A program made the translations under genes and the position numbers. Below are positions 8,124 to 25,165 of a DNA stretch of 39,413 bases, piece after piece. The stretch is from Candidatus Thorarchaeota archaeon (GTDB lineage: Archaea; Asgardarchaeota; Thorarchaeia; Thorarchaeales; Thorarchaeaceae), in NCBI GenBank assembly GCA_004524435.1, contig SDNO01000003.1:1-39413 (forward strand), given 5' to 3'. How positions within the stretch are numbered: position 1 is the stretch's first letter; the number at the start of each line of letters is the position of its first letter. The notes under the pieces are model-generated. The model was given only the letters and a program-made list of their open reading frames with translations. It did no database searches and had not been told where the DNA came from.

Positions 8124-8993
8124 TTATTTGTCGTTTTGTTTGTTTTCATCCAGAGGTTTGACAAGCAACCCCTCGTCCGTCACTTTGAGGACCACCCGTT
8201 TCTCAATGCCTGCAAGTTTCTTGACCTCTTCGGGGACAACGAGTCTTCCCTTGGCATCGACTTCAGTGATATCACCATAGAGTGTATGTTTCTGTCCCTC
8301 GATCAGACCATCGCGGATATGCAGAACTCTATCAGCATACTTCGCTACACGTGGATTGTGTGTGACATTGACAACGGTTGTTTGAAGATCAGTGTTTGCC
8401 GTCCTGACGTAGTCCATCACCCTTTCTGAAGTCTCAGTATCAAGCTCGCCGCAGATTTCATCACCCAGAATCACGTCAGGTTCATTTGCCAGTGCGACAC
8501 ATACTGCAACTCGCTGAATCTGTCCTCCAGATAGCTGACTCGGTCTATGATCTGCTCTCGCCTTCAGACCCATGGTATCTAGCAGCATCTTAGCTCTCTT
8601 GGACGCTGTGTCTTTCGACTTCCCTGCTATACGCATCGGGAGAAGAACATTCTCAAGGGCGGTCAGACCCTCCACCAGGTTTTCCGTTTGCCAGACGAAT
8701 CCAATCTTTCTCCTTCTGAACTCCACCGCCTGATCGTCCTTCAGCTGACTGATGTTTTGTCCATCGAAGACCACCAAGCCGCCCGTTGGCCTATCCAGCG
8801 TGCCAAGGATTTTCAGCAATGTTGATTTGCCGCTGCCTGATGCTCCCATGAGGCTGACAAACTCCCCCTCCTTCACCTCGAAATCTATTCCTCTGAGGGC
8901 GATCACTTCTTGTGGGCCTTGATTGTATATCTTAATGAGGTCACGGACCACAATCTTGTTTTCTTTTGTAATTCGATCTAGGTCTTCTCCCAT
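8124..8993 (-). CDS. ABC-transporter ATPase (LolD/MacB-like) fused to a C-terminal AbrB-type domain, cassette 2
   Basis: The 289-residue protein powers the FtsX-type permeases encoded just upstream. Residues 1-235 are a complete nucleotide-binding domain: Walker A GASGSGKST (about 50-58), Q-loop FVWQ, signature LSGGQIQRV, Walker B VILGDEI with catalytic Glu, and H-loop THN. Residues about 243-281 (EVDAKGRLVVPEEVKKLAG ... GLLVKPL) match the SpoVT/AbrB swapped-hairpin domain, which is normally found in DNA-binding regulators and MazE-type antitoxins. The ORF track starts at a GTG (9002), but GGAGTGAT sits at Shine-Dalgarno distance from ATG 8993. The paralogue at 14724 has the same GGAGTGAT-4 nt-ATG layout and an alignable N-terminus. 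The Walker B neighbourhood is DEICGELD rather than the usual DEPTGNLD. Fusion and ATPase calls are firm; DNA binding is inferred. Confidence 0.93.
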   Translation of the reverse strand: MGEDLDRITKENKIVVRDLIKIYNQGPQEVIALRGIDFEVKEGEFVSLMGASGSGKSTLLKILGTLDRPTGGLVVFDGQNISQLKDDQAVEFRRRKIGFVWQTENLVEGLTALENVLLPMRIAGKSKDTASKRAKMLLDTMGLKARADHRPSQLSGGQIQRVAVCVALANEPDVILGDEICGELDTETSERVMDYVRTANTDLQTTVVNVTHNPRVAKYADRVLHIRDGLIEGQKHTLYGDITEVDAKGRLVVPEEVKKLAGIEKRVVLKVTDEGLLVKPLDENKQNDK

Positions 8994-8998
8994 GGGTA

Positions 8999-11806
8999 TC
9001 ACTCCGTTGTTCTGAGTTCTTCTGCGAGGTTACGATTCAGTATTCTATTCGAGATGAAGTATGTGGAACCTAGGGCAAATGCTAGGCTCAGAGCCAGCAG
9101 CAGAGCTGTTACAGTTGGGGGTACTAGAAACCGGACTGTAAGGCGTGACCACTCAACAAGCAATCCAGAACCTGCGTATACAAGTGGCATGTTCATCACT
9201 GTTAGTGTTAGGAAACTTGCGAGTACGAGCCCCAGAGCCGCGCCGATAAGTGTGCTGAACGCACTATCAAGTAGAAGAGATGTACTAAGAGAATGTCTCT
9301 GTGTACCCATGGCTCTCAGGATTGCGAGCTGCTTCCTGAGTTTCCGGCCACGAATCATCGTCAGGAGGACCATCCCTGCCGTCAGATATCCGAGTGAGAA
9401 TATCAGATTGAGTGCATAAACTCCGTAGATTGACCCACTTGTCGCAGACCGGAATAGGGCATCATACTCCTGTGAGGGGACATCATAGGAGAGAGTTTCA
9501 TTCGAGCACGCTTCTCGGATGCTCTGCACGACGGCCTCAGGATTGCTTCCTTCTTTCACACTAACATAGACTTCAGTGATTCGCGACGTATTCAGCGTTT
9601 GATAGACGTATTCTATGTTCATGATGATGAAGTCAGTCGCATCTGCAACGCCTGGAAGATACGTCTTGCTCTCAGTAGTTTCGTCATCTGATAGAAGCCC
9701 CACGATTGTGCAGTTATTCTCCAGCAGCGTTTCATTATGGAGAAAGCTGACTGAGATTTCGTCTGTATACACGGGTTGACCACTGCCGGACTGGTCGGCG
9801 GTTTGAAACAATGGCTTGAAGGATGACAGGATGTTCGATGAATTGGAGAGAAGGCTCAGAGTTGCTTCTATGTCGCGTGTGTCAACAAAGTAAGGCAACC
9901 AGAATGCTGCTCCTGACCAACGCTCCGGCTGAACGGCATACACGGGGTATGTAGTGTTCACCTCGAGCAGTTCAGTTCCGGCCCGAGTCATATATCTCAG
10001 CCAGGCAACTGTCCTGAGCAGGCCTGCAGCGCGGTGAACCCCTTCTATGTCGGCGACTTCGTCAACAAAGGCACAACTTGCATACTCTGAGCCCGGTTCG
10101 ATGTGAATGACTATGTCTGCTCCTGCTTCGAATGTGTACAGGTCTCTGATGTGTTCTGCTCCAGTACTAGAGGCAATGGCCGAGAAGAATCCTGATGCAA
10201 AGACCAGTACGATGAACATCGTACCAAGAGCTTCACTGGTCCTGAACACACGTAGATTCCTGCTGAGGACTCTGGGGCCGATTGCCAGTTTCGTTTTTCC
10301 CACTCTCCCAAGGACCTTTCTGCGAAGAAATGGACCCAATCTCGAAAGAGCTTTTGCCGAGCCTATTATGAGCGCAGAGAAAAGCAGAATGAGAGTCATA
10401 GCGAACAGAACAGAACCTGAGCTGGAGATTCCTTGTTGTCCTAGTCTTCCAAGCATTGGAATCACCAGAATCGCCGATACTGCAGCAATAGAAATCTCCC
10501 ACACGGGACTCACCCTTTCACACCCTTGCCGAGTGGTCTGGCGGTCTATCTTCATTCTCGCCTCGCTGGGCAGCATGATTAGTGCTCTCAATGCAGATGG
10601 AAGACTGACTGCTACTCCAACGACGAAGGAAAATGAAAACACATAGAGAATCAACTCAGGATTCAAGGCCTGTTCAACTGCAATGGTTCGAGACAGATCA
10701 AACTGGAGCGGACCAGAAGTGGTTCCCGATAATACCGCAGCCAAGATTCCAGTGCCCACAGCCCCGAAACTGCCCAAGATGCCCGTCACAAGAGCGCTGC
10801 CCATCACCCAGACGAATGCCTGTCTTCCCTTCGCACCCCTTGTCACTATGTTTCCAATCTCTCTCCGTCTTTCATCGGCGAGAATCTCAGAGTTGTAGTT
10901 CACCAGCATGATGCCCATAATCACACTTGGGACCGAAAAGGCCAGAGCAACGAGTGTCATGGTCGAGGACCATGAGCCGTAGCCATACACGGATTCGAGC
11001 AAGTCAAAACGTTCAACGAGGGCATAGGGTAAGGCCGCCTGCTCTATCCTTTTCTTCACGGTCTTCAGTCCGGGCACGATGGAGGCTGGGTCAGACTGAT
11101 GAAGCAGATTCCGGTCCAGCTGCAGCCAGAAGACATGTCGGATTCCATTGAGGCCTCCTAGCTCCAGACTTCCATACTGATACTCAAGCGACTGACGTGA
11201 CGTCAATATCTGCAAGCTGCTGAATTTCTGACTTGCAGCCATTTCTGTACTCGGAGCTATGGAAAAAGTTCCAATGACTGTGAGATTGCCGTAGTGGAAT
11301 ACAGGCTTGAACTCGGAATCGTATACAACCAAAGGAATCTTCCATGTTTCCCCAAAGGCAAGTCCTTCTTCTATGAAGAGCTGTTCCTCAACATAACATT
11401 CCCCGTTTCGGAGAATTGTGTCATCACTCAATGAGAAGGATGCACCAAAGGATTGGAAGAAGGTGTTGTTGACGCCTAGTATCGTTCGTCTTGAGGCTCC
11501 TGGTAAGTCTCTGGGTTTGGAGTAACCTTGAGCTACAGACAACATTTCTAGATTCGAAACGTCCTGTTGTTCAATGATGTCGTGAAATAGAATGGGAAGG
11601 GTGGTTGAATTCTGGGCGTAGAAACTATTCGTAACTGAAACTTCTAGATCAACCTCTACCTCTGATGTCATCTCGGAGAGCACGTTGCGACTGGAGGCGT
11701 CCAGATAGAGCAGCGCTCCGCCGAGCACACCTGATGCGATCGAAAAGACCACCACTGTCACGAGGACTTGGGGAGCTTTTGATGTGAGTCGCGACTTCAG
11801 GAACAT
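8999..11806 (-). CDS. FtsX/MacB-type ABC permease B, cassette 2
   Basis: This 935-residue permease belongs to the type VII (MacB/LolCE/BceB-like) superfamily, which works by moving substrates or signals on the outer face rather than through a channel. I count ten membrane segments. One lies near residues 11-35, followed by an extracytoplasmic domain of about 240 residues. Six more are in the middle, then a second external domain, and three at the end. This amounts to two FtsX modules. The cytosolic motif before the final helices (RKLRKQLAILRAMGT) is the FtsX-family coupling region. Its ATG directly abuts the TAG of the preceding permease (TAGATG) with GGGAGGGGG upstream, and it overlaps the ATPase start region, so the three genes are translationally coupled. 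It is a paralogue of the 15605-18424 protein (both begin MFL-SRL-S-APQVL). The substrate is unknown. Confidence 0.9.
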   Translation of the reverse strand: MFLKSRLTSKAPQVLVTVVVFSIASGVLGGALLYLDASSRNVLSEMTSEVEVDLEVSVTNSFYAQNSTTLPILFHDIIEQQDVSNLEMLSVAQGYSKPRDLPGASRRTILGVNNTFFQSFGASFSLSDDTILRNGECYVEEQLFIEEGLAFGETWKIPLVVYDSEFKPVFHYGNLTVIGTFSIAPSTEMAASQKFSSLQILTSRQSLEYQYGSLELGGLNGIRHVFWLQLDRNLLHQSDPASIVPGLKTVKKRIEQAALPYALVERFDLLESVYGYGSWSSTMTLVALAFSVPSVIMGIMLVNYNSEILADERRREIGNIVTRGAKGRQAFVWVMGSALVTGILGSFGAVGTGILAAVLSGTTSGPLQFDLSRTIAVEQALNPELILYVFSFSFVVGVAVSLPSALRALIMLPSEARMKIDRQTTRQGCERVSPVWEISIAAVSAILVIPMLGRLGQQGISSSGSVLFAMTLILLFSALIIGSAKALSRLGPFLRRKVLGRVGKTKLAIGPRVLSRNLRVFRTSEALGTMFIVLVFASGFFSAIASSTGAEHIRDLYTFEAGADIVIHIEPGSEYASCAFVDEVADIEGVHRAAGLLRTVAWLRYMTRAGTELLEVNTTYPVYAVQPERWSGAAFWLPYFVDTRDIEATLSLLSNSSNILSSFKPLFQTADQSGSGQPVYTDEISVSFLHNETLLENNCTIVGLLSDDETTESKTYLPGVADATDFIIMNIEYVYQTLNTSRITEVYVSVKEGSNPEAVVQSIREACSNETLSYDVPSQEYDALFRSATSGSIYGVYALNLIFSLGYLTAGMVLLTMIRGRKLRKQLAILRAMGTQRHSLSTSLLLDSAFSTLIGAALGLVLASFLTLTVMNMPLVYAGSGLLVEWSRLTVRFLVPPTVTALLLALSLAFALGSTYFISNRILNRNLAEELRTTE

Positions 11807-14560
11807 CTAGACCCCCTCCCTCTCCAATGAGTGTGCCCAGCTGGCGTCAAGAGCTTGGTTGAGTTCGATATTCGCCCCTACCAATGTCACAATCACGTTG
11901 ACAAGGAATACAGTGGTAATGAACAGCGCAAGAATGATTCCCATAAGCGCAATCGGGATAGAGATCTGTATTGGAACCGGGTACTTGTACCATGAGCCGG
12001 AGTGGGTGTCTGCAAAGAGTAGTAGTTCGTTAGATATCATTAGGGGGGAAAACATCATGACCATGAGTAGGCTGAAGAATGTGAGCGCTACGGTTTCAGA
12101 TACTTGTGTCTTTGTGACATCTCCCCTTGTACTCCCCATGGCCTCAAGAATTGCCATCTCTCTTCTTGCTTTCTGGAGACTCTCCATGGAATACAATAGG
12201 AAGACTGCAATGCTTGCCAATAGACCAACCATCACTGTTACCGTGTCAACTCTCCTCTGGACAAGGTACTGTGGGCTTTGCGTAAGGATAGTGGTCTCGA
12301 TATGAGCTGAAGACCATTTTCCCTCGTCAATCACTTGTGAGGCCCCGTGAGCTATGAGGTCGTATGCAAGTTGAGCGCCCGCCTCTGATTCATCCACCCG
12401 GGCGAAGATTATTGGATCAAGTGTCTCAGCCTTCTGTATTATCTCAGACGCACTACCAATATTGATGAAGACCTTCTGTTGACCTACCACATATGAGTAA
12501 CCGAGACCCGTATAGACCAGCTTCCCATCCTTTGATACGAGCCTATCAGGAAGATAGTCTACAACTGCCACAATGACAAACTCGAAGACCTCAATCTCGT
12601 TGCCGGATTTGAGAAAGGCCCGAAGAAGATCATCCTCTCCAATCTCCATATCACTGGCGATATCTTCCGTCACTATTGCCCCAAGAGGGTTACTTGCGAG
12701 CTCATTCAATGCGATACGAAGGTCTGATTCCTCCAAGTGAATTCCATGTTCGTCATAGGCAACATAAGAGAGTTGTTCCGGATTGACTGCCACAAAGTCT
12801 GCAGTATTACCCCCCTCTGTACTTAGGTCAAGCCGAGTAGCTGCTGCAAAAGTTGCGTTGGTGCAGTAGGGATGAGATGTGACATTGGAGAGGAAAGGCT
12901 GCCAAGAGTCCGGAGAGCTTGAATCCAGGTGAAACGAAACATCACCACCAATGGCGAATCTAGTGTTGACAGTCGCCGTGTAGGGAAGTGTCGTGCTTAC
13001 GAGTGCAGAATTCCACGATGAGCTCAATGCCAAAACAAGCACCATGGCCGCTGGGACTGCAGAGGCTGATTCTTTCACCATCCTCCTTATTCCCACACTC
13101 GCGGATACTCTGCCCATCAACGGGCTGAACATCTTTGCCAACCATGGGGATCCTTTTCTAACGATTCCTATGGAAAGATTGGCAAGCCCGATGAATATGA
13201 CGAGAGGAAGGGACTCGAGGATGAGAGACACCACGAAATCATCTCCAGAAGCGAAACCTCCCAAGTGTAGACTACTGAAAACCAAGAGCCCAATGACAAT
13301 CAAGACAAGGTCCCACCGAAGAATGCCCGTGATCCGTGAGTACTTGCCTAACTGTGCACCCTGAGGTTCTGTGTCCACACGAGTACGGTAGTGAGAGAGG
13401 TAAGCCGCAGCCGTTATCATGGGCAAACCAGTTCCAATGACAATGCCGAAGATTAGGCAATCAAGAGTCACCAGAACCCTTGAGTTCAGGAGCAGTGAAA
13501 AATCGAAAGTGAGAAATCCAGTAGAACTAGTAGCCATCCAACCGAGTAGTGTTCCTAACAGGAATCCTATTCCTGCCGCTGCCAAAGAAAGGGCGAGGAG
13601 TTCGAAGTTGAGGATCCTGTTCAAGTAGGACTGAGGCACTCCACGAGCATGGAGCCTGTTGATCTCTTTCTTCCTCTCAGTCACATGTTTCCGTACCACT
13701 AATAGAGAGGTAACCACTGCCAGCACCAATGAACTCCCGGCACGATATACATTGACCAGGCGCAATTCCTGCAGATATGTTTGGTACTCATTGATACCTT
13801 CCTTCAGCATGCCAATGACAGTGATGAGAGACCAGTCTCTCGTAACACCGTAGTCCTCATCCAGACTCCTAATTGACTCCTCGACTTGAGTGAGGACCGA
13901 GAGGCTCGTACGAGGGTTGAAAGGCGTCACGACATTCTCTGGCACCGATACGTAGACATACCCAGTTTTTGCAAACGTGATTAACTGTTCCAGGACTATG
14001 GCCTTTGCCAATGAATACTGGTTGGGGTTGTGGTTATCCACCGCTCCCAGCTCGAAAATGCCAACCAGAGTGAGTTGATAATCTGTTCTAGGTAGCATGA
14101 CTGTCATATTGACGTCGAATCCAAGTGTGCTCTTCAGGGCTGAAGCGACGCTCTGCTCTAGCGCAATCTCAGATCTGTTTGCTGGCATCCTCCCCTCTAT
14201 TATCCTGAATACAGTGGGATAGTTCTCGATGAAGAGATCGTCTATGTAGGCTGTTGTCGTTTCAACTTCCCATAATAGGGACTTATAGAGGGTTGTCAGT
14301 CTGGCTCGAACAGTAGCCACTGATCCTGCCTTTGCCACGCCTTCCATCTCACGAATCTCATCGAGCTTATGCTGGAGATACTCGGCCTGAGCAGTCATCG
14401 ATGCAGGCCCGACGTCAGTGTGCTCATCCCACTCGCTGAGTGACTCAGTATCAAGATAGACCATCAAGCCAACGATACTTGCAGAACATAGCATGAAGCA
14501 GAACACAGTCACTATTTGGCTGCGGGACTTCTGTAGTATCTTGAGACTCAATGGGACCAT
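11807..14560 (-). CDS. FtsX/MacB-type ABC permease A, cassette 2
   Basis: The 917-residue protein is a second, distinct FtsX-type permease that presumably pairs with permease B to make a heterodimer. A membrane segment sits at about 15-35 and a large external domain follows. A middle block contains several helices, including the coupling segment RKEINRLHARGVP. A second external domain precedes the last three helices, which come after the coupling segment RREMAILEAMGSTRGDV. Its closest relative in the window is the 18424-21213 protein (shared SMHKWDE/SLSEWDE-type N-terminal external motif). The ATG at 14560 has a good Shine-Dalgarno (CGGAGGAAT) 7-8 bases upstream. It is the first gene after a 163-base gap that holds a TATA-like element and a palindrome, so this cassette may also have its own promoter. 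Confidence 0.9.
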   Translation of the reverse strand: MVPLSLKILQKSRSQIVTVFCFMLCSASIVGLMVYLDTESLSEWDEHTDVGPASMTAQAEYLQHKLDEIREMEGVAKAGSVATVRARLTTLYKSLLWEVETTTAYIDDLFIENYPTVFRIIEGRMPANRSEIALEQSVASALKSTLGFDVNMTVMLPRTDYQLTLVGIFELGAVDNHNPNQYSLAKAIVLEQLITFAKTGYVYVSVPENVVTPFNPRTSLSVLTQVEESIRSLDEDYGVTRDWSLITVIGMLKEGINEYQTYLQELRLVNVYRAGSSLVLAVVTSLLVVRKHVTERKKEINRLHARGVPQSYLNRILNFELLALSLAAAGIGFLLGTLLGWMATSSTGFLTFDFSLLLNSRVLVTLDCLIFGIVIGTGLPMITAAAYLSHYRTRVDTEPQGAQLGKYSRITGILRWDLVLIVIGLLVFSSLHLGGFASGDDFVVSLILESLPLVIFIGLANLSIGIVRKGSPWLAKMFSPLMGRVSASVGIRRMVKESASAVPAAMVLVLALSSSWNSALVSTTLPYTATVNTRFAIGGDVSFHLDSSSPDSWQPFLSNVTSHPYCTNATFAAATRLDLSTEGGNTADFVAVNPEQLSYVAYDEHGIHLEESDLRIALNELASNPLGAIVTEDIASDMEIGEDDLLRAFLKSGNEIEVFEFVIVAVVDYLPDRLVSKDGKLVYTGLGYSYVVGQQKVFINIGSASEIIQKAETLDPIIFARVDESEAGAQLAYDLIAHGASQVIDEGKWSSAHIETTILTQSPQYLVQRRVDTVTVMVGLLASIAVFLLYSMESLQKARREMAILEAMGSTRGDVTKTQVSETVALTFFSLLMVMMFSPLMISNELLLFADTHSGSWYKYPVPIQISIPIALMGIILALFITTVFLVNVIVTLVGANIELNQALDASWAHSLEREGV

Positions 14561-14648
14561 TGCGGATTCCTCCGGTGCTCAGGTATCAGCTGGCTTCTCG
14601 AAACACACCGTATCCATTCTCCACGATTCTTGCCCAGTGCTGTATTCA

Positions 14649-14680
14649 GAAACCGGTTTCGTTGATACTGCCTAATAAGC
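14649..14680 (-). promoter_or_regulatory. internal promoter with a perfect 12-bp palindrome (candidate operator)
   Basis: In the gap between the two ABC cassettes the minus strand reads GCTTATTAGG at 14680-14671, a TATA-like element. About 26 bases downstream, at the predicted transcription start, lies the perfect palindrome GAAACCGGTTTC (14649-14660). A symmetric site at a start point is what a dimeric repressor would bind. Who binds it is unknown; the AbrB-type domains encoded on either side are candidates. Confidence 0.4.
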
Positions 14681-14723
14681 AGACTCCTTGAAGCAGCAGG
14701 CGGTTTGCTCCTGCGCTCTCAGC

Positions 14724-15599
14724 CTATGATTGCTCGTCTTCTTCGAGATGCGTTTCAAGTGGCCGCATGAGGAGCCCTCTGTCTGTGATCTCGAGGACCA
14801 CTCTCTTTCCGATGTTGGCCAGTTTCCTGACTGATTCTGGAATCACGACTCTGCCCTTTGCATCGACCTCTGTCATCTCTCCGTAGATGGTGTGTTTCTG
14901 TCCCTCGATTAGGCCGTCTCTGATGCGGAGCACTCTATCTGCTGTGGCCGCAACCCGGTCATTATGTGTTACATTGACAACCGTCGTGCCGAACTGCTCA
15001 TTAATCATGCGAACGGATTTCATGACCATGTCAGTTGTTTCCGTGTCTAATTCTCCGGTTATCTCGTCGGCCAAAAGAAGCTCTGGTTGGTTAGCCAGTG
15101 CCACACAGATTGCCACCCGCTGGTTCTCGCCGCCTGAAAGCTGATTCGGTTTGTGCTCCATCCTCTTGGAGAGGCCCATCGTCGTGAGAAGCATCTCAGC
15201 ACGTTCTTGGGATTTGTCTTTGGGAGCTCCTGCTAGATTCATCGGCAGCATGACATTCTTCAGAGCGGTGAGGCCTGGTACCAGATTGCCACTCTGCCAA
15301 ACGAAACCGACCTTCCTGCGTCGATACATCATTGCCCTATAGTCATCAAGTAGAGTCACGCTATGCCCATCAAAAAGGACGCTTCCAGCAGTGGGTTTGT
15401 CTAAGGCGCCTAGCAGTTTGAGGAGAGTTGACTTTCCACTTCCTGACGGACCTACAATGGTTATGAATTCGCCCTCCGAGACTTCGAAGTCAATGCCTCG
15501 TAGAGCAATCACTTCTTTCCTTCCCCTCTTGTAGACCTTCATCAGGTCTCTGACCACGACTTTGTATTTTTCCGCAATCTCTTCTATGTTCTCAGTCAT
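14724..15599 (-). CDS. ABC-transporter ATPase (LolD/MacB-like) fused to a C-terminal AbrB-type domain, cassette 1
   Basis: The 291-residue protein is the paralogue of the 8124 ATPase. The ATPase domain has Walker A GPSGSGKST (about 50-58), Q-loop FVWQSGN, signature LSGGENQRV, Walker B LLLADEI with catalytic Glu, D-loop GELD and H-loop THN. Residues about 243-281 (EVDAKGRVVIPESVRKLAN ... GLLMRPL) form the SpoVT/AbrB-type domain, joined through the linker EGQKHTIYGEM, which is nearly identical in the paralogue. The C-terminus is acidic. The ORF track begins 53 codons early inside the upstream permease; ATG 15599 is correct because GGAGTGAT stands 4 bases before it and the paralogue aligns from there. 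It follows permease B after a 5-base gap. Whether the domain binds DNA or only regulates the ATPase dimer, as the extra domain of MalK does, cannot be told from sequence. Confidence 0.93.
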   Translation of the reverse strand: MTENIEEIAEKYKVVVRDLMKVYKRGRKEVIALRGIDFEVSEGEFITIVGPSGSGKSTLLKLLGALDKPTAGSVLFDGHSVTLLDDYRAMMYRRRKVGFVWQSGNLVPGLTALKNVMLPMNLAGAPKDKSQERAEMLLTTMGLSKRMEHKPNQLSGGENQRVAICVALANQPELLLADEITGELDTETTDMVMKSVRMINEQFGTTVVNVTHNDRVAATADRVLRIRDGLIEGQKHTIYGEMTEVDAKGRVVIPESVRKLANIGKRVVLEITDRGLLMRPLETHLEEDEQS

Positions 15600-15604
15600 C
15601 AGAA

Positions 15605-18424
15605 TCACTCCGCGTATTGAATTTCCTCCGCAATGTTGGCCTGAAGGCATCTCCATGTCACAGTCAGAACCGCAAAGAGTGAAAAGACAAAGGCTGTGCC
15701 TATGATGCCAGCAAGGATTCCGGTGGGTATCGAAGGCACCACCGGAAGCCGAGTCCACAGACTCGTTGTGCTGCTTCCTATGAAGACTAAGGGAATCTGA
15801 CTGACGAGGCTGGCCAAGAAGATGCCGAAAAGGCTCCCAATGACGCTGGCAATACAGATGCCCGCAAGCATGTCAATTCCCACAACAAGCATAATCGAAC
15901 TTGTATCACTACCAAGGGCCCGCATAATTGAGAACTCTCGCCGCAGTTTTCGCACCCGGATTACTGAGACCACTGCCATCCCAGCCGTCAGGTAGACAAG
16001 TGCGAACACAACGTTCAAGGTATAGACTCCGAATACTGACTGGCCAGCTTTCGCATCTAGAGTCTGATCCCGTTGTTCGTGCGCACTATCGATACCCACC
16101 ACGTTGTTCGGTGCGGCCTCATGGATATCTTGGATTATGCGAGTGTAGTTCGCCCCGTCCTCGATTCTCACGAAATACCGGCTGACACTATCTGTGTCTA
16201 GAGCCATCTGGACATAGTTGAGGTTCACGAGAACAAAACTGGGAAGGTTCGAGTATCCTGGCAGATATCTCACTCCACCGCCCTCCATAGAAGACAGCGT
16301 ATCAACTATATTGCAATCGAGATAGAACTTCTCGTTGGGGTCCCTTGCTATCTCTAGCCTGTATGTGTCGCCATAGACTGGGACCCGGTTCGGATACTGA
16401 CCTGCATAGTGGGAGAAGGGTTTGAAGGAGCTCAACACGTTGGAGTTCGCCAGCTGCATTGCCTGGAGCCCCATCTGGGGCGTATTCTCATAGGCGAAAT
16501 ACGGGAGCCAGAATCCCGTTTCCTCATAGAGCTCTGGTTGTACCCCAATGACATTGATCTCCCTTCGGACCTGTGAAACAGCTCCCATGGTATCCTGTGT
16601 TGTGTACATGACAACACCGCTTGCCTCAAGCACAGCACAGGCAGATGTCACTCCTTCAATGGCGGACAGATTGTCCACAAAAGCACGTGTCATGTTATCG
16701 AAGGCTGGATTCAGTTCAACGCTGATGTCTGCCCCAGTCTCAAACAAGAAGAGATGCTCCATGTGGGCATAGCCCGTCGATGCAGAGACAGATGAGAATA
16801 CGCCAGCAGTGAATACGAGGGCGATGAACATGGTCCCGATGATCTCACTCTTCTTGAAGACATTCGTGGCCCGTGAGAGTACTCTCGAGGCCGCTGCCAA
16901 TCTGGGTCGTTTTATCCGATCCAAGACTCGGGACTTGAACCAAGGTCCAATTCGAGCAGCCCCACGTGTGAACGTGAACAGGGCGATGGCAAGTAATGGT
17001 ACTACTAGCAGCATCATGGATGCGATGGCGACGAGGCTGAATCCGTATCCAAGCATCATGAGCATCGGCCCCAGAAGGTACGCGGAGATAGCGAAGCCAA
17101 CGATATCGAAGAAGGGATTTCCAATAGTTTCTCGATCCAAGAGGTTCTCGCGTTGCACGATACTGTGAGCCTCTGTGGCGGTGATTGTGAGCGCTTTTGC
17201 TGCGGCAGGTATGGAAACTAGTAGCCCCATAACAAATGAGAATACGAAGACGAAGATGATAGACTGTGTAGTGAAGAAGAACGTAAACTCGCCGAGCTGC
17301 GTCAGATCGAAGTTCATGAATGTGCGTACTGTACTCGACATGACAGCCCCTGCAATCCCCGTCCCAATTGCACCGACACTTCCGACGATGGCCGTGAAGA
17401 GACCCGAACCCATGATCCAACTGAATGCCTGTCGTCCTGAAGCTCCCCGAGTCTTCAGTGTTCCAACATCCCTACGTTGTTCGTCTGCCAGTAGATTCGA
17501 ATTGTAGTACACGAGGAACATGCCCATGAATATTGTTGGAATGCAGAAGGCTACCCCTATGGCTCGAATGACAAAGACCCAGTTCACGTACTTGTTGACA
17601 GCGTCACGGAGCTCGTAGCCTCCGTATGGCACGACAGCATAGGGAAGAAGTCGTTGCTCAATGCGGCGGCGAATGTTCTCCAGTTCATCAATGGTTTCTG
17701 CAGGATCCGACGACAGGATAAGGCTGTGGTCGATTGCGGCCCAGACTGCATCCCTCACGGTGCTGTCCATGAAGACGGGCGCCATCCTGTTTCTTATTCC
17801 AACCTGAGTGGTCACCATCCTCAGCGATGTGAACTCCGGTTGCTGCCAGTAATAACTCCTCATGAACAGCTCTGAAGTGAAAGTACCGACGATGGTGAAG
17901 TTGACATTGTTCTCTATCCTGTTACCATGCTGATCCCACTGGACTGTGCGCGCCGTGTAGTTGTCCCCGATTGCCAGCCCGAAATCGTCCATTGTTTCCT
18001 TCTCAACCCAGCAACTGGTGTTATCGAATGGGGAGTTACCCTGGGTGTCCTCTAGTGCGTTTGGGAACGTTTCGAAGAATGAAGACTCAACGCCCAGGTA
18101 TGTGTTTTCATAGTACCTTGGGTCATCCTGATACCACTCAAAGGATTGAAGGTAAGCCACCGACTCTGTGTCCAGAATATGAGTCTGATTTGCTATTGTT
18201 GCAATGATGTCTTCGAGCGATGTCTCGTTCTGGAAGCCGAAGATTGGCTGGATTTCGACCTTCAAGTCGATGGAAACGTCTTCGGTGAAATCATCCAAGA
18301 CCTGTGGTCCGATAGTATCCATGTAGAGCAAGACGCCACCTAGCACACCAGAAGAGAGCGAGAATACAATCAGAGTTGCGAGTACCTGAGGTGCGCGTGA
18401 CATGAGTCTTGAGAAGAGAAACAC
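15605..18424 (-). CDS. FtsX/MacB-type ABC permease B, cassette 1
   Basis: The 939-residue permease has the same plan as the 8999-11806 protein. There is an N-terminal helix (about 11-35), an external domain, a central block of about six helices, a second external domain, and three C-terminal helices preceded by RKLRREFSIMRALGS. The central coupling segment is ADEQRRDVGTLKTRGASGRQAF, matched closely in its paralogue (ADERRREIGNIVTRGAKGRQAF). The start is GTG at 18424, overlapping the TAG of permease A by one base (TAGTG), with GGGAGG upstream. It is part of the translationally coupled ABC operon, and probably forms a heterodimer with permease A1 and uses the AbrB-fused ATPase encoded next. The substrate is unknown. 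Confidence 0.9.
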   Translation of the reverse strand: MFLFSRLMSRAPQVLATLIVFSLSSGVLGGVLLYMDTIGPQVLDDFTEDVSIDLKVEIQPIFGFQNETSLEDIIATIANQTHILDTESVAYLQSFEWYQDDPRYYENTYLGVESSFFETFPNALEDTQGNSPFDNTSCWVEKETMDDFGLAIGDNYTARTVQWDQHGNRIENNVNFTIVGTFTSELFMRSYYWQQPEFTSLRMVTTQVGIRNRMAPVFMDSTVRDAVWAAIDHSLILSSDPAETIDELENIRRRIEQRLLPYAVVPYGGYELRDAVNKYVNWVFVIRAIGVAFCIPTIFMGMFLVYYNSNLLADEQRRDVGTLKTRGASGRQAFSWIMGSGLFTAIVGSVGAIGTGIAGAVMSSTVRTFMNFDLTQLGEFTFFFTTQSIIFVFVFSFVMGLLVSIPAAAKALTITATEAHSIVQRENLLDRETIGNPFFDIVGFAISAYLLGPMLMMLGYGFSLVAIASMMLLVVPLLAIALFTFTRGAARIGPWFKSRVLDRIKRPRLAAASRVLSRATNVFKKSEIIGTMFIALVFTAGVFSSVSASTGYAHMEHLFLFETGADISVELNPAFDNMTRAFVDNLSAIEGVTSACAVLEASGVVMYTTQDTMGAVSQVRREINVIGVQPELYEETGFWLPYFAYENTPQMGLQAMQLANSNVLSSFKPFSHYAGQYPNRVPVYGDTYRLEIARDPNEKFYLDCNIVDTLSSMEGGGVRYLPGYSNLPSFVLVNLNYVQMALDTDSVSRYFVRIEDGANYTRIIQDIHEAAPNNVVGIDSAHEQRDQTLDAKAGQSVFGVYTLNVVFALVYLTAGMAVVSVIRVRKLRREFSIMRALGSDTSSIMLVVGIDMLAGICIASVIGSLFGIFLASLVSQIPLVFIGSSTTSLWTRLPVVPSIPTGILAGIIGTAFVFSLFAVLTVTWRCLQANIAEEIQYAE

Positions 18425-21213
18425 TAGCCATCGCCTCCCATGGGTCCGCCTTCAGACCAAGATGCGTTCAGAGACTGTGAAAGCTGGATTCTTGTTGCAA
18501 GGCTCGATACGGCCACAACAAACAATGTGACTGACACCAGGAAGAAACCTAAGACAAGGGATAGGGTTCCATAAGGAACAGAGAAGAAGAATCGGATTGG
18601 ATAGATGATATAGCTCGTCTGCTGGGATAGGCCGGTCGTGACAATGAGTAGTGGTGCAAATACGAGGAGCAGCATGATGCTCGAAAGTGTGAGTACCAGG
18701 AGCTCCGTCGCTTGCGTCTTCACTATGAGCCTCTTCCCTGCTCCCATCGCTCTCATCAGGGCGATCTCTCTTCGTCGTGAGTTCAGTCCCTCCGCTGCAT
18801 AGACGGATATGGCCCCAAAGATGACCAAGGTAGTGGCTATTGTCAACATTGTGTCCACTGCTCGATCCATCGTATAGTCTGTAGTGCCGATATACGAGCG
18901 AACTTCAGAGTCAACGTCAGCGTAGTCATTGTTGGCAGAGTCATCCCCATCGGTAGATTGGTATCCTGCTGCCTCTAGTATGTCGAGAGCAACTTCGGTG
19001 GTATTACTGGAATCTGCAACACGCATCGCGTACATGTTTCGCGACTCCGTGGTGAAGTTCACGAATTGTGATAGGTATCCTCTGTTGACCCACACAGTCC
19101 GCAGTCCAAATCCCGCACCGTAGTAGCCCCATATGTTCCCAGAAGTATCAGACAGAAGCGCGTTGGTGAGAGCCTCGTAGATTCCAATGATTGTGAAGGT
19201 GAACACCGAAACGTTCCCTCCTTCGGTTCCATATGACCGCAACGAATCGCCCACGGACAGCTCGTATTCTTCGGCTATATCTTGGGAGATTATGGCACCC
19301 ATTGGACTGGTTTCGAGCTCCATTAGCATGCTGCTAAGGGGCGACTCATTGAGGGGCTGGCCTGTGTAGTCGTATCCAACGGCCAGATAGTCCGATGGAT
19401 CCATTGCCACCAAGTCTGCGGCGTCGTAGTATCCGGTAGAGAGCATCCTCTCAGTGATTGACAGCTCTGCTCCAGCGACATAGGCCTCATGAAGCGTGCA
19501 GTTCTGCACGAACTCGGTAGCGTTTGCATCGGCGAAGCTATTCAAGGCATCGAGGTCGAAACGGATGTCTCCTCCGAATGTGAATCTGGCCTGATTCATC
19601 TTTGTTAGAGGGAGTGAATCCCCGATAACCGCGCTGCTCCAGGCAAGGCTGATAGTGAGCACTAGCACCATGGCGACAGGCCCTGCAGAGGACGCAGCCC
19701 TTCCTATTCGTCTGATTCCGACTGACGACGGAATAGAACCAAAGATGCCCTCCATCCTATTCGAGATACGATTTGCCCCGGCTCTGAGGGCCTTGATGAA
19801 TAGACTTGCCATCCCCAGAAAAAGCGCAAAGGGTGCAAGACTTAGTATCATGTTAGAGAAGAATCTCAACAATGGGTTGAGCTGCAGAGCAGTCCCCGTA
19901 GCCAACATGGCTATCAACGCAATGCCTGTCAGAGAGACCAGGAGCACATCCCACTTCACAAATCCCAGGAGGCGTGTGAGTTTGGCGAGTTTACCCGTGC
20001 TCTCCTCTGCCGTCTGTCTAATCCTGTATACGTAGTCATAGGCGAGGATTGCCCCGAAGGGGACGAGAATCCCCGCTACGGCTGATAGAGCCAGTGATTC
20101 GATGCTAATCAGGAACGGCTCATTGACGAAAAGCTCCCATCGGAAGACGAAATAGTCACTCGACATCACTCCCACTCTGCTGAGCAGGGCTCCGAGGCCG
20201 AGGCCGACTATCGTGGAGAGAGCAGCTAGTATCATGATTTCTTTGTACACCATGTTTCGAACCTTGTTCTCATCAGCACCTCTGGAGATGAGAATGTTCG
20301 ATTCGTATCTCCTCTCATTCATGTTGTGACGCACGGCGAGGAAGAGTGTCAAGACTACGAGGAGAATGGGGCCACCAGCTCGAAATAGCTGAGCAACACG
20401 CTTCCCCTGTTGCCAGGATGCATAATTCGTGATTCCTGAGCGGAGCCCGTCGTTTACCCAATATCTACTACCAGTATCCCGGTCTGGATCATACGTGGGA
20501 TCTAGTTCTCTTATTGACTCCTCGATCTGCAGGAGGTAGTCAAGACTGCCCTGAACATTGAAAGCTGATACTCTTGACCTGTCAACGTCAATCCAAAGGT
20601 ATGAATCATCGGTTCGTGGATCTAACATTGATCCCGTGACCATTGCGATCTGCCATCCGTAGTGGAAAGAACCAGAGTTTCCACTGAACTCCCAGAGCCC
20701 AACCACGGTCATGACGTAGGAACCACCTATCCCTGGCTCTCCTCGTGTGTAGTTCACTAGGTCACCAATGTCTATATCGGTTTCTTGGGCAATTTCGGCA
20801 CTGAGGGCTATCTCATCGGTGGCTGAGGGAAAGGCTCCTTTGTTGAGGACGAAAACATTGCCAAAGTGTGTCATCAGTGTTTGATCGTACCTGAAGACAC
20901 TAGCTGACCAAGTTATGGGTTGGCCCCCTGTTCCGATAGCTGTCACGCTTCCTTCTGCCGCTGCAAAGATTGCGATGTCTGTGACTCCGTCAATCTCTGC
21001 AACACCATCTGCGATGTGTTCGACGCCCGCGCCTCCTATCTCCATGGCGACAGGGCCAATCTCCACAAGCTCGTCCCACTTATGCATGGAATACGAATCA
21101 ACGTAGACCGTTATCGCTGCAGCAAGGGACGAGGAGAGCATGAGGCAGATCAGTGTGACGGCCTTTCTGCGGGACCCTCCGAATGTTTCGTATCCTACCT
21201 GCAGGGCAGTCAC
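18424..21213 (-). CDS. FtsX/MacB-type ABC permease A, cassette 1
   Basis: The 929-residue permease has an N-terminal helix at about 15-37, external domains of a few hundred residues after the first and after the seventh helix, and the FtsX coupling segments RRYESNILISRGADENKV and RREIALMRAMGAGKRL. It is paralogous to the 11807-14560 protein. The start is GTG 21213; its Shine-Dalgarno (TAGGAGGAT) contains the stop codon of the preceding classical ATPase gene, so translation of the two is tightly linked. External domains of this size in FtsX-type permeases are used for substrate or partner binding (as in MacB, LolCE and BceB). I cannot assign export of a specific lipid, peptide or protein. Confidence 0.9.
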   Translation of the reverse strand: MTALQVGYETFGGSRRKAVTLICLMLSSSLAAAITVYVDSYSMHKWDELVEIGPVAMEIGGAGVEHIADGVAEIDGVTDIAIFAAAEGSVTAIGTGGQPITWSASVFRYDQTLMTHFGNVFVLNKGAFPSATDEIALSAEIAQETDIDIGDLVNYTRGEPGIGGSYVMTVVGLWEFSGNSGSFHYGWQIAMVTGSMLDPRTDDSYLWIDVDRSRVSAFNVQGSLDYLLQIEESIRELDPTYDPDRDTGSRYWVNDGLRSGITNYASWQQGKRVAQLFRAGGPILLVVLTLFLAVRHNMNERRYESNILISRGADENKVRNMVYKEIMILAALSTIVGLGLGALLSRVGVMSSDYFVFRWELFVNEPFLISIESLALSAVAGILVPFGAILAYDYVYRIRQTAEESTGKLAKLTRLLGFVKWDVLLVSLTGIALIAMLATGTALQLNPLLRFFSNMILSLAPFALFLGMASLFIKALRAGANRISNRMEGIFGSIPSSVGIRRIGRAASSAGPVAMVLVLTISLAWSSAVIGDSLPLTKMNQARFTFGGDIRFDLDALNSFADANATEFVQNCTLHEAYVAGAELSITERMLSTGYYDAADLVAMDPSDYLAVGYDYTGQPLNESPLSSMLMELETSPMGAIISQDIAEEYELSVGDSLRSYGTEGGNVSVFTFTIIGIYEALTNALLSDTSGNIWGYYGAGFGLRTVWVNRGYLSQFVNFTTESRNMYAMRVADSSNTTEVALDILEAAGYQSTDGDDSANNDYADVDSEVRSYIGTTDYTMDRAVDTMLTIATTLVIFGAISVYAAEGLNSRRREIALMRAMGAGKRLIVKTQATELLVLTLSSIMLLLVFAPLLIVTTGLSQQTSYIIYPIRFFFSVPYGTLSLVLGFFLVSVTLFVVAVSSLATRIQLSQSLNASWSEGGPMGGDG

Positions 21214-21225
21214 GTCTATATCCTC

Positions 21226-21957
21226 CTACGATACATTCACGATTGTTCCGTCTCTCATGGTGTAGAGCTTCTCCATCTGTTGACCCACCTCTGGGTCATG
21301 CGTCACCACGATGAGTGTCCCACCCTCTGTGTGAGTGAGTTCCCTCAGTACCTGCATGATCTCCTCACCCGTCCTTGTGTCCAGGTCTCCTGTAGGTTCG
21401 TCCGCAAGCACAATTACCGAGCTGGCTTGACCTTTTGGCTTGGCCAAGGCTCGAGCAATTGCAACCCGCTGTTGTTCTCCTCCGGATAACTCGTCTGGTC
21501 TGTGTTCTGCTCTCTCTGTTAGACCCACCAGCTCGAGGAGATGATCAACTCGCTCTTTCCGCGCATTCTCCTCAATACCACCGATGAGTAGCGGCAACTC
21601 GACATTCTCATAGGCGGAGAGAACCGGTAGCAGGTTGAAGAACTGGAAGACGAATGAGATCTTATCTCTCCGAACGGCAGTGAGATCCTTCTCGTCCATC
21701 TTTGTGATGTCCATTCCGTCAATCCTGACTGAACCGGAGGTTGGTCTGTCTAGGGCTCCTATGAGATTAAGAAGCGTGGTCTTGCCGCTTCCCGAAGGCC
21801 CCATGATGGCAATTGCTTCTCCCTCCGTTACGTCCAGGGAAACGCCTCGTAGGGCTTCAACACTCACTTCCCCAACTCTGTAGATCCTAGAAACGTTGTC
21901 AACTGAGATGAGATAGTCGTCGTTCAGCACGTCCCACTCCAAGATTCTTGCTAACAT
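21226..21957 (-). CDS. classical LolD/MacB-type ABC ATPase, head gene of the operon
   Basis: The 243-residue ATPase is a textbook member. Walker A is GPSGSGKTT (about 52-60), the Q-loop is FVFQFFNLLP, the signature is LSGGEQQRV, Walker B/D-loop is VLADEPTGDLD, and the H-loop is VVTHDPEV. It ends right after the nucleotide-binding domain (TMRDGTIVNVS) and lacks the AbrB-type extension of the two cassette ATPases. Its residues around Walker B are the canonical DEPTG, unlike theirs. It is the promoter-proximal gene of the minus-strand operon and overlaps the Shine-Dalgarno of permease A1. It may form a mixed ATPase dimer with an AbrB-fused partner, or serve permease A while the fused ATPase serves permease B. 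That division is speculative. Confidence 0.95.
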   Translation of the reverse strand: MLARILEWDVLNDDYLISVDNVSRIYRVGEVSVEALRGVSLDVTEGEAIAIMGPSGSGKTTLLNLIGALDRPTSGSVRIDGMDITKMDEKDLTAVRRDKISFVFQFFNLLPVLSAYENVELPLLIGGIEENARKERVDHLLELVGLTERAEHRPDELSGGEQQRVAIARALAKPKGQASSVIVLADEPTGDLDTRTGEEIMQVLRELTHTEGGTLIVVTHDPEVGQQMEKLYTMRDGTIVNVS

Positions 21958-23164: not shown

Positions 23165-24478
23165 TCACGTGTTCGAAATCTGGTCATCGTACAAGTCTGC
23201 AGCAGTCTGGAATACATCTTCGACTCCCTCGTTTGTTAGACACGAGGTCTCTACAAACGCTACGGGATGGAAGCTTCCTTCACTTCCTAGGTTTTCCGCA
23301 ATCTTCTCAGCCGCTTTGAAACCTTCCTCGTAGGTCACCGGTGGTTCATCCCACTCTTCCTCCCCTTCCGTTCTCTCGTCTACCTTGTTTCCAACTAGGA
23401 CAATCGGAGGCATATCCTCAGAGGTCATGGCGACTTCGCGAATCCAGAAGTCGATGCTCTCGAAGCTCCACCTGTCGGAGGCAGAGTAGACAATCAAGAG
23501 GACATCAGGGCTAGCGTAGAATGTTCTGCGATCTATTCTTGACTCGACAGCATAGTCAAAGCACCAGACTTGGATTTCCACCCGGTGATTGGTCGTGTCA
23601 AAGACCCGCTCGTAGATGTATCCTGATACTTCGTTGGTTTCCTCATCGATGCAGAGAGGACAGAGATTGGCCTTCGTCATAAGAGTCCTCTTGCCCACAG
23701 ATTTCTCGCCTAGAATCAGAACCTTTGCCTTCACTAAGGGCTTGATCGCGTGTTTTGAGCGCTTAGAGATTGGTTTTTCTTTGTCCTCCAAATCCTGTTC
23801 TTCTTCAGCTCTAGCAGGTGCTTGCTCCAACACATCCGGAGCGATAGGTTCCGAGGCTCTGCTCTTGGATGCGGCCTTTACCTCCATTTCCCCGGATAAA
23901 TCTATCTTGATTCTGGACTTACTCTCTTGCTTCTGGCTGCCCGTCGGCGCCATAAACGTGTCACTCATATGTTCCACCGCTGAGAGTGCTTCTGTTATGC
24001 CTTCATATCCATTCTGCCAGTTTGTGACTTCAGGCTCCGTTTCCGGAGTGGCCACAAATCTGGCTGTTGCCTCTTCTTTCAACTCGGGTTCGGCGTCCCT
24101 TAGAGCTTTTTCGGCGGTCTTTTTTTCTTGAACTGGGGGAGAGGTGTGCATTGTTTCGGACTCCTCTATGGCCTCTACTTCGGGGATCGGCTCGGGTTCA
24201 TCTTCAACCATTATTGATTTGGCCACGGGGACACCGATTGTATCCAGTGTGTCTCGGAGAATTCGGTTCGCAATGAGTTTGCCGTTGGAACGAAGATAGA
24301 GATTGAGGTCCTCGACTATCTCATCAAATGATCTATTCTTGATCTTTATTTTCTTCTTGATGATCCCTCTGTCTCGGACCTCAACGTAGGTTGGTAGAAG
24401 TGTGACCGAGACTGTTGTTCCGGGGACTATCAAGTGCCAGTTGCTCCAGAGCTGGGTTCTATCATGAACCTTCATCAT
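23165..24478 (-). CDS. Ras-like small GTPase domain with long N-terminal extension
   Basis: The 437-residue protein ends in a Ras-superfamily G domain (about 250-437): G1 GEKSVGKRT (257-265), G4 GNKVD (364-367) and G5 ETSC (410-413). The G3 position reads WCFDYAVES, where Ras has DTAGQE, so the conserved Gly is a Val; GTP hydrolysis or switching may be altered. Residues 1-90 form a compact beta-rich unit of unknown type (HLIVPGTTVSVTLLPTYVEV). A ~150-residue acidic, probably disordered linker follows (EDEPEPIPEVEAIEESE). Extra Ras-like GTPases are a known hallmark of Asgard archaea, and this protein is one reason I place the window there. The ORF track starts 78 codons early; the ATG pair at 24478/24475 fits the promoter spacing and keeps the divergent gene's promoter free. 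Confidence 0.85.
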   Translation of the reverse strand: MMKVHDRTQLWSNWHLIVPGTTVSVTLLPTYVEVRDRGIIKKKIKIKNRSFDEIVEDLNLYLRSNGKLIANRILRDTLDTIGVPVAKSIMVEDEPEPIPEVEAIEESETMHTSPPVQEKKTAEKALRDAEPELKEEATARFVATPETEPEVTNWQNGYEGITEALSAVEHMSDTFMAPTGSQKQESKSRIKIDLSGEMEVKAASKSRASEPIAPDVLEQAPARAEEEQDLEDKEKPISKRSKHAIKPLVKAKVLILGEKSVGKRTLMTKANLCPLCIDEETNEVSGYIYERVFDTTNHRVEIQVWCFDYAVESRIDRRTFYASPDVLLIVYSASDRWSFESIDFWIREVAMTSEDMPPIVLVGNKVDERTEGEEEWDEPPVTYEEGFKAAEKIAENLGSEGSFHPVAFVETSCLTNEGVEDVFQTAADLYDDQISNT

Positions 24479-24595
24479 GGAAGTCTTAACTGTTTCGTAG
24501 ATAGTTGTCCTCTGAAGTGGCAATCTCTCTCCCAAAGGCTCCGGATAGAAAGAAATATGTCTGATATTATCTGTCGTTTGTTCTGGGAAAAGACC
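24479..24595. promoter_or_regulatory. divergent promoter region between the GTPase and phosphoribosyltransferase genes
   Basis: On the + strand GATATTATC is centred about 28 bases before ATG 24596, fitting a leaderless APRT-like transcript. On the minus strand AACTATCTA is centred roughly 24-26 bases before ATG 24478. Both spacings support the trimmed starts chosen for these two genes over the longer, mutually overlapping ORF-track versions. Confidence 0.45.
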
Positions 24596-25165
24596 ATGAC
24601 AGAAGAAGATACGAATTTCCGCGACTATGTTGACGTTATTATCGACTGGCCCGAACCAGGAAAGGCTGTTTGTGACATCAGTCGACTGCTTGAGCATCCA
24701 ACAATCTTCCATGAAGCTGTCGTGGCTCTGGCTAGGCCACTTGTCGAACTGCAGCCAAATAAGGTTCTAGGCATAGAACAGCGAGGTTTGGCACTTGGAA
24801 GCGCCATTGCGTACTACTTGGGATGCGGAATTGTGCCCGCTCGTTCGATTGCGTATGTGCCAGACGACTACAAGCGACCAGTTGAATTCCTGCCTTCAAG
24901 CATGTTCGCAGATCGAAGGCTTGCTCTCGTATCGGAGTCCATCGATGAGGGTGACAGAGTAGCAATCGTTGATGACTGGCTTGTCCAAGGCACCACTGTA
25001 CTTGCGGTGAAGCGACTGCTTGAAGAAAAGCTGGGTGCAACAGTGGTAGGGATATCGTGTGTGATCAACAACTTATCTGACACTCGTCTCAAACTTCTGG
25101 GACGTCCGGAAGTCTTTGAACTCATCAGGAATCTGAAGACAGATATTCTCACACCAGTTGACTGA
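24596..25165 (+). CDS. adenine-phosphoribosyltransferase-like protein
   Basis: Type I phosphoribosyltransferases join a purine base to PRPP in salvage. The 189-residue protein has the APRT order of elements: DIIDWPEPGKAVCDISRLLEHP at the N-terminus, KVLGIEQRGLALGSAIAYYLG, and the PRPP-loop region VAIVDDWLVQGTTVLAVKRLL (about 124-144). The usual loop is VDD-x-x-A-TGGT; here the stretch is VDDWLVQGTT, so the Thr and first Gly are changed. The two acidic residues that contact the ribose hydroxyls are kept. It may be an active APRT with a variant loop, a salvage enzyme for another base, or a non-catalytic regulator as some archaeal PRTase-fold proteins are. ATG 24596 is preferred over the ORF-track start at 24434, which would overlap the divergent GTPase gene. 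Confidence 0.8.
   Translation: MTEEDTNFRDYVDVIIDWPEPGKAVCDISRLLEHPTIFHEAVVALARPLVELQPNKVLGIEQRGLALGSAIAYYLGCGIVPARSIAYVPDDYKRPVEFLPSSMFADRRLALVSESIDEGDRVAIVDDWLVQGTTVLAVKRLLEEKLGATVVGISCVINNLSDTRLKLLGRPEVFELIRNLKTDILTPVD

Follow-up and report, generated by a model that had tools for sequence, protein, structure and literature searches.

Two ABC ATPases encoded in the window, as we call the whole 39,413-nucleotide stretch of Thorarchaeota DNA analyzed here, carry a C-terminal extension that resembles AbrB, raising the question of whether this fusion is held in place by selection and what such a domain would do on a transport motor. The window, contig 60, belongs to a genome of 2.77 Mb in 281 contigs, and the two ATPases, A and B, lie with their permeases on its minus strand:

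8124..8993, minus strand: ATPase A, 289 aa, a LolD/MacB-class ABC ATPase with a C-terminal AbrB-like tail, in the second cassette (cassette A)
8301..8957, minus strand: ABC ATPase domain of A, residues 13-231
8151..8300, minus strand: linker and AbrB/MraZ-like domain of A, residues 232-281
8999..11806, minus strand: permA2, 935 aa, an FtsX-type permease with two FtsX stretches, 35% identical to permB2
11807..14560, minus strand: permA1, 917 aa, an FtsX-type permease, 30% identical to permB1
14724..15608, minus strand: ATPase B, 294 aa, with the architecture of A; the syntenic, family-wide ortholog
14757..14906, minus strand: linker and AbrB/MraZ-like domain of B, residues 235-284
15605..18424, minus strand: permB2, 939 aa, an FtsX-type permease
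18424..21213, minus strand: permB1, 929 aa, an FtsX/MacB-type permease
21226..21957, minus strand: ATPase0, 243 aa, a tail-less ABC ATPase, first gene of cassette B

Judged by their sequences, A and B are type VII ABC ATPases of the LolD/MacB class with intact motifs. In A, whose minus-strand ORF can start at ATG 8993 (289 aa) or at GTG 9002 (292 aa), the ABC ATPase domain takes up the first ~230 residues and contains Walker A (GASGSGKST), the signature LSGGQ, Walker B (GDE) and the H-loop (VTHN), and the last ~55 residues give the AbrB/MraZ-type match. The best family models for the ATPase domain of both proteins are LolD, MacB and YbbA, with LolD equivalog scores of 223 bits for A and 227 bits for B, below the curated cut-off of 307.75. 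The two are 63% identical over 289 residues (65% in the ATPase domain, 77% in the linker and 68% in the AbrB core), and their tails align without a gap. The original prediction that A and B have this tail in common was thus confirmed, as the sequences it quoted are exact and the linker and the spacing match.

We conclude that A and B share a predicted C-terminal domain of ~50 residues of the AbrB/MraZ swapped-hairpin type, with equal linker and spacing. The Pfam family MraZ was matched by all 13 tails tested (best 5.9e-6) and MazE_antitoxin by 12 of the 13 (best 4e-5); the single Pfam tail score that was compared with its cut-off fell below it (20.0 versus 23), and the tail of B reached 3.6e-6 and 26.6 bits with TIGR01439 (AbrB), under the cut-off of 28.3. 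Because these scores lie just below the thresholds of the profile libraries, annotation would probably miss the tail. MraZ, AbrB and SpoVT topped the search of PDB sequences with the tail profile, and by these profile matches the AbrB assignment is more than chance. In a low-confidence model of the tail alone (pLDDT 61), strands and helix follow in the order beta-beta-alpha-beta-beta; among PDB structures Foldseek ranked SpoVT, AbrB, MazE and a histone-like protein from archaea highest, but at E values (0.16 or worse) that are not significant. The full-length AlphaFold2 model of B, made with an alignment that contained only A, had a pLDDT of 36. No C-terminal OB/TOBE domain of the MalK/FbpC type was found in A or B among the matches listed, where the tail matches MraZ and MazE only.

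Conservation across the duplication had been taken to show that the extension is under selection. The conclusion holds, but A and B by themselves make a weak case, because the raw identities of the parts are similar and synonymous sites between the two are saturated, so that dN/dS cannot be computed for this pair. The main support for selection lies beyond this pair. On a shared tree, the relative rate was 0.40 for the tail (50 sites) versus 1.14 for the ATPase domain (219 sites), making the tail ~2.8 times slower, and the terminal branch of A measured 0.19 in the tail and 0.88 in the ATPase domain. Estimates of dN/dS by part, proposed with the original prediction and obtained here from 11 ortholog pairs that were chosen for low synonymous divergence and are not independent, were low in both parts, at 0-0.059 in the tail versus 0.027-0.078 in the ATPase domain. 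The last ~10 residues, beyond the AbrB-like domain, are unconserved. At E 1e-33 or better, the tail profile was matched in 38 Thorarchaeota-family genomes, including that of the window, and such matches are confined to that family; those outside it ranged from 1e-6 to 1e-3 and were mostly stand-alone AbrB proteins. A neutral tail that merely survives from an ancient fusion is therefore very improbable. Divergent copies do exist, and the branch of A and B is without the zinc ribbon that its nearest relatives have, but a domain that is slower than the ATPase domain, low in dN/dS and at full strength in 38 family genomes already contradicts this reading. Since conservation is stricter in the tail than in the ATPase, we take the tail to serve a function there.

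Orthologs without the tail, which the original prediction had named as the counter-evidence to look for, were not found in the Thorarchaeota-family genomes searched. Ten family genomes had no full-length match at first; in two of them (G019 and G031) the copies are broken or partial but include the tail, and in the other eight no ATPase is more than 47% identical to B, so these contain no tail-less ortholog. The genome G007 is 97% complete, and loss of the cassette was rejected there since the neighboring genes for the essential aspartyl-tRNA synthetase (AspS) and the adjacent membrane protein are also unmatched; the absence of the cassette is probably an assembly gap. G007 is identical over 2,500 bases to a locus of Candidatus Thorarchaeota archaeon isolate BC, which places this GTDB family in Thorarchaeota. 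In another genome (G010, C64, 1258-1809), a truncated second ATPase copy has its N-terminal part replaced by unrelated sequence and its tail intact, and represents a pseudogene or an assembly join.

The two window proteins differ in their history. Orthologs are in all cases closer to B (66-77%) than to A (58-66%). In a tree of ATPase domains with close outgroups, the remaining Thorarchaeota sequences group to the exclusion of A, and the AU test narrowly rejects A and B as sisters (p=0.048), suggesting that A is probably an older, deep paralog and not a recent duplicate, with long-branch effects possible.

Two large FtsX permeases lie upstream of each tailed ATPase, and PF02687 (FtsX) was matched in all four permeases of the window. 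Cassette A has no ATPase0 and comprises its permease pair and A. Across the Thorarchaeota genomes inspected the order ATPase0, permease, permease, tailed ATPase is fixed, and the surroundings of cassette B are conserved around a single cassette, from a GTPase/PRT/acyl-CoA-ligase-like side to an AspS side. In most of the loci inspected, the cassette contains two ATPases and the tailed one comes last. Five loci from families f9, f17 and f22 have a tail-less ATPase, then one permease, then the tailed ATPase; loci in G106, G142, G145 and on contig 314 of G131 depart from the order ATPase, permease, tailed ATPase, and that of G137 has the permease, with no tail-less ATPase in the stretch read. An apparent second cassette copy in G003 was dismissed as a redundant assembly of one cassette. 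In G045 (14245-19829) and G037 (14109-19816), the position that cassette A occupies in the window, immediately downstream of ATPase B, is taken by two additional FtsX permeases that have no tailed ATPase of their own. A 515-aa protein encoded next to the cassette (window 23165-24712) is conserved in most family genomes inspected; its long N-terminal region precedes a small-GTPase-like domain (GEKSVGKRT, VGNKVD) at the C-terminus.

The tail has relatives beyond this family. In a search of 392 related genomes, with at most 12 candidates scored per genome, 85 were positive at E 1e-12, all of them in the Asgard phylum among the matches listed. Most Asgard relatives carry a zinc ribbon after the AbrB-like domain, and a profile of AbrB plus zinc ribbon found proteins of the ATPase-AbrB-zinc ribbon type in Thorarchaeota and in families f9, f17, f22, f23 and f24, all of one phylum. 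Profile comparison gave 91-94% probability between the A/B-type tail and the zinc-ribbon tail types and 98% between the A/B-type tail and stand-alone AbrB. Pfam MraZ support for the zinc-ribbon types is weak or absent, so what assigns them to AbrB is their profile-profile similarity together with the shared D...R...P core. The ATPase domains with AbrB tails form one clade, separate from tail-less and coiled-coil-tailed ones (support 92-99). A third tailed ATPase of the window's genome (contig 273, 14303-15257, cut by the contig end) has a zinc ribbon (CRVCG...CPNCG) behind an AbrB-like domain that has diverged further, and orthologs of this ATPase occur in most family genomes. In place of the AbrB-like domain, related ATPases of the same class bear a C-terminal tail that resembles a coiled coil and frequently ends in ELHRMGF or similar. 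One scan of a collection of named genomes with A alone as the query gave no AbrB-tailed relative, and a scan of viral contigs with the tail profile found no relative. At 556-954, the viral contig IMGVR_UViG_3300046025_000056 encodes a 132-aa protein in which a CxxC zinc ribbon accompanies two AbrB-like repeats.

Domains of the AbrB family form intertwined homodimers by hairpin swapping (PMC5222340). Because such a fold is complete only as an intertwined homodimer, the tail would most likely join two ATPase subunits, and its position at the C-terminus of a motor that itself acts as a pair points to a role in pairing or regulation. We infer dimerization and regulation, with DNA binding not the main role. 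The balance of probability tips slightly toward the tail being a dimerizing or regulatory module on a type VII (FtsX/LolD-like) ABC motor, joining two tailed ATPase subunits. A and B would then be the working ATPases of type VII mechanotransmission transporters, their tails AbrB/MraZ swapped hairpins that would pair two tailed subunits, either both motors on one permease or the motors of neighboring transporters, and this pairing would set or regulate motor assembly and opening, as the C-terminal domains of MalK and FbpC do. FbpC is an ABC ATPase with a domain-swapped C-terminal regulatory domain (PMC2896483), and a YbbP-like permease carries two ATPases (PMC12646458). Across 82 tails drawn from three groups, the Asp and Arg of the core (AbrB D11 and R15) never vary, while basic residues at the R23 and R24 positions are typical of the A/B type but missing from most other Asgard tails, which leans toward dimerization as the common role across groups. 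Two points count against pairing. In several cassettes a single permease is encoded with two different ATPases, so the motors may be heterodimers in which the tail is unpaired within one transporter, and the conserved Arg pair 261/262 of A and B is not needed for dimerization alone.

This Arg pair bears on the reading in which the tail binds DNA and the ATPase has a second role in regulating transcription, for instance by repressing its own cassette when off the permease, which we consider unlikely. The AbrB contact residues R15, R23 and R24 correspond to tail positions R253, R261 and R/K262, and their equivalents are conserved in A/B-type tails: R15 is kept, position 261 is Arg in 36 of 37 sequences (Lys in A only), and position 262 is Arg or Lys in 35 of 37. 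Arg at the R23 position also occurs in three Asgard proteins of two other families. Set against this are the replacement of R8 by Thr or Ser, a net charge near zero (A 0, B +2, family mean +1.5) and the lack of R23/R24 in most zinc-ribbon-type tails. The basic differences between A and B had been read as possibly reflecting different DNA specificities, which found no support: the KP/RP site means little, as position 282 of B is unconserved and Ser in 20 of 37 sequences. At the KK/RK site, Arg is the rule at position 261. In genus g6 the cassette promoter does carry TAGTACAATNCTTNGTACTT, an inverted repeat of imperfect symmetry that four genomes each match perfectly at a single site, upstream of the cassette (G041 C72:26373, G025 C333:55929, G005 C223:36644, G045 C156:115359), but this candidate operator is missing from the window's genome and absent upstream of the window's cassette. 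A half-site is found at the equivalent place in G020 (g10) and G001 (g2). Nor was a precedent for an ABC ATPase with an AbrB domain found in the open-access literature searched. Less probable still is that the AbrB tail of the motor subunit binds its own promoter, coupling transporter assembly to transcription, an arrangement that one of the two AbrB-tailed Asgard ATPase clades would have retained. About as doubtful as DNA binding in general is the reading that the tail docks or senses another protein or a small ligand, which would gate the ATPase, in an antitoxin-like or ACT/TOBE-like manner. The closest Pfam families of the tail, MraZ and MazE, are in line with this, as are the other tails of related ATPases, such as the coiled-coil-like ones, and the zinc ribbon of most Asgard relatives, which suggests a larger interaction surface; however, no ligand pocket was identified, and the cassettes of the loci inspected contain no genes other than ATPases and permeases that could supply a partner.

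The cassettes can be set beside known transporters. Like LolCDE, MacB, YbbAP and BceAB, they combine FtsX-type permeases with ATPases that score best with LolD, MacB and YbbA, but a cassette here has two different ATPases, one of them AbrB-tailed, and both A and B differ from LolD in scoring below its equivalog cut-off. The two FtsX stretches per permease are as expected for single-chain permeases like YbbP and BceB (PMC12646458). Similar to MalK, FbpC and MetN, A and B have a predicted small beta domain at the C-terminus of the ATPase that could pair two subunits, whereas the C-terminal domains of those proteins are other folds, without a match in A or B among the matches listed; in MalK and FbpC they are OB folds. 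Asgard archaea are relatives of eukaryotes, and the AbrB-tailed ATPases form one Asgard clade in which, in Thorarchaeota, the tail is under strong constraint, providing a test case for the reuse of a fold for DNA binding and toxin neutralization on a transport motor. With AbrB, MraZ, SpoVT and Sso7c4 the tail shares the D-x-x-G-R-x-x-x-P core, a helix with an Arg pair and, in the low-confidence model, the beta-beta-alpha-beta-beta order, and it differs from them in having Thr or Ser at the R8 position, in its near-neutral charge and in being fused behind an ABC ATPase. The parts and folds are known; their combination appears to be new.
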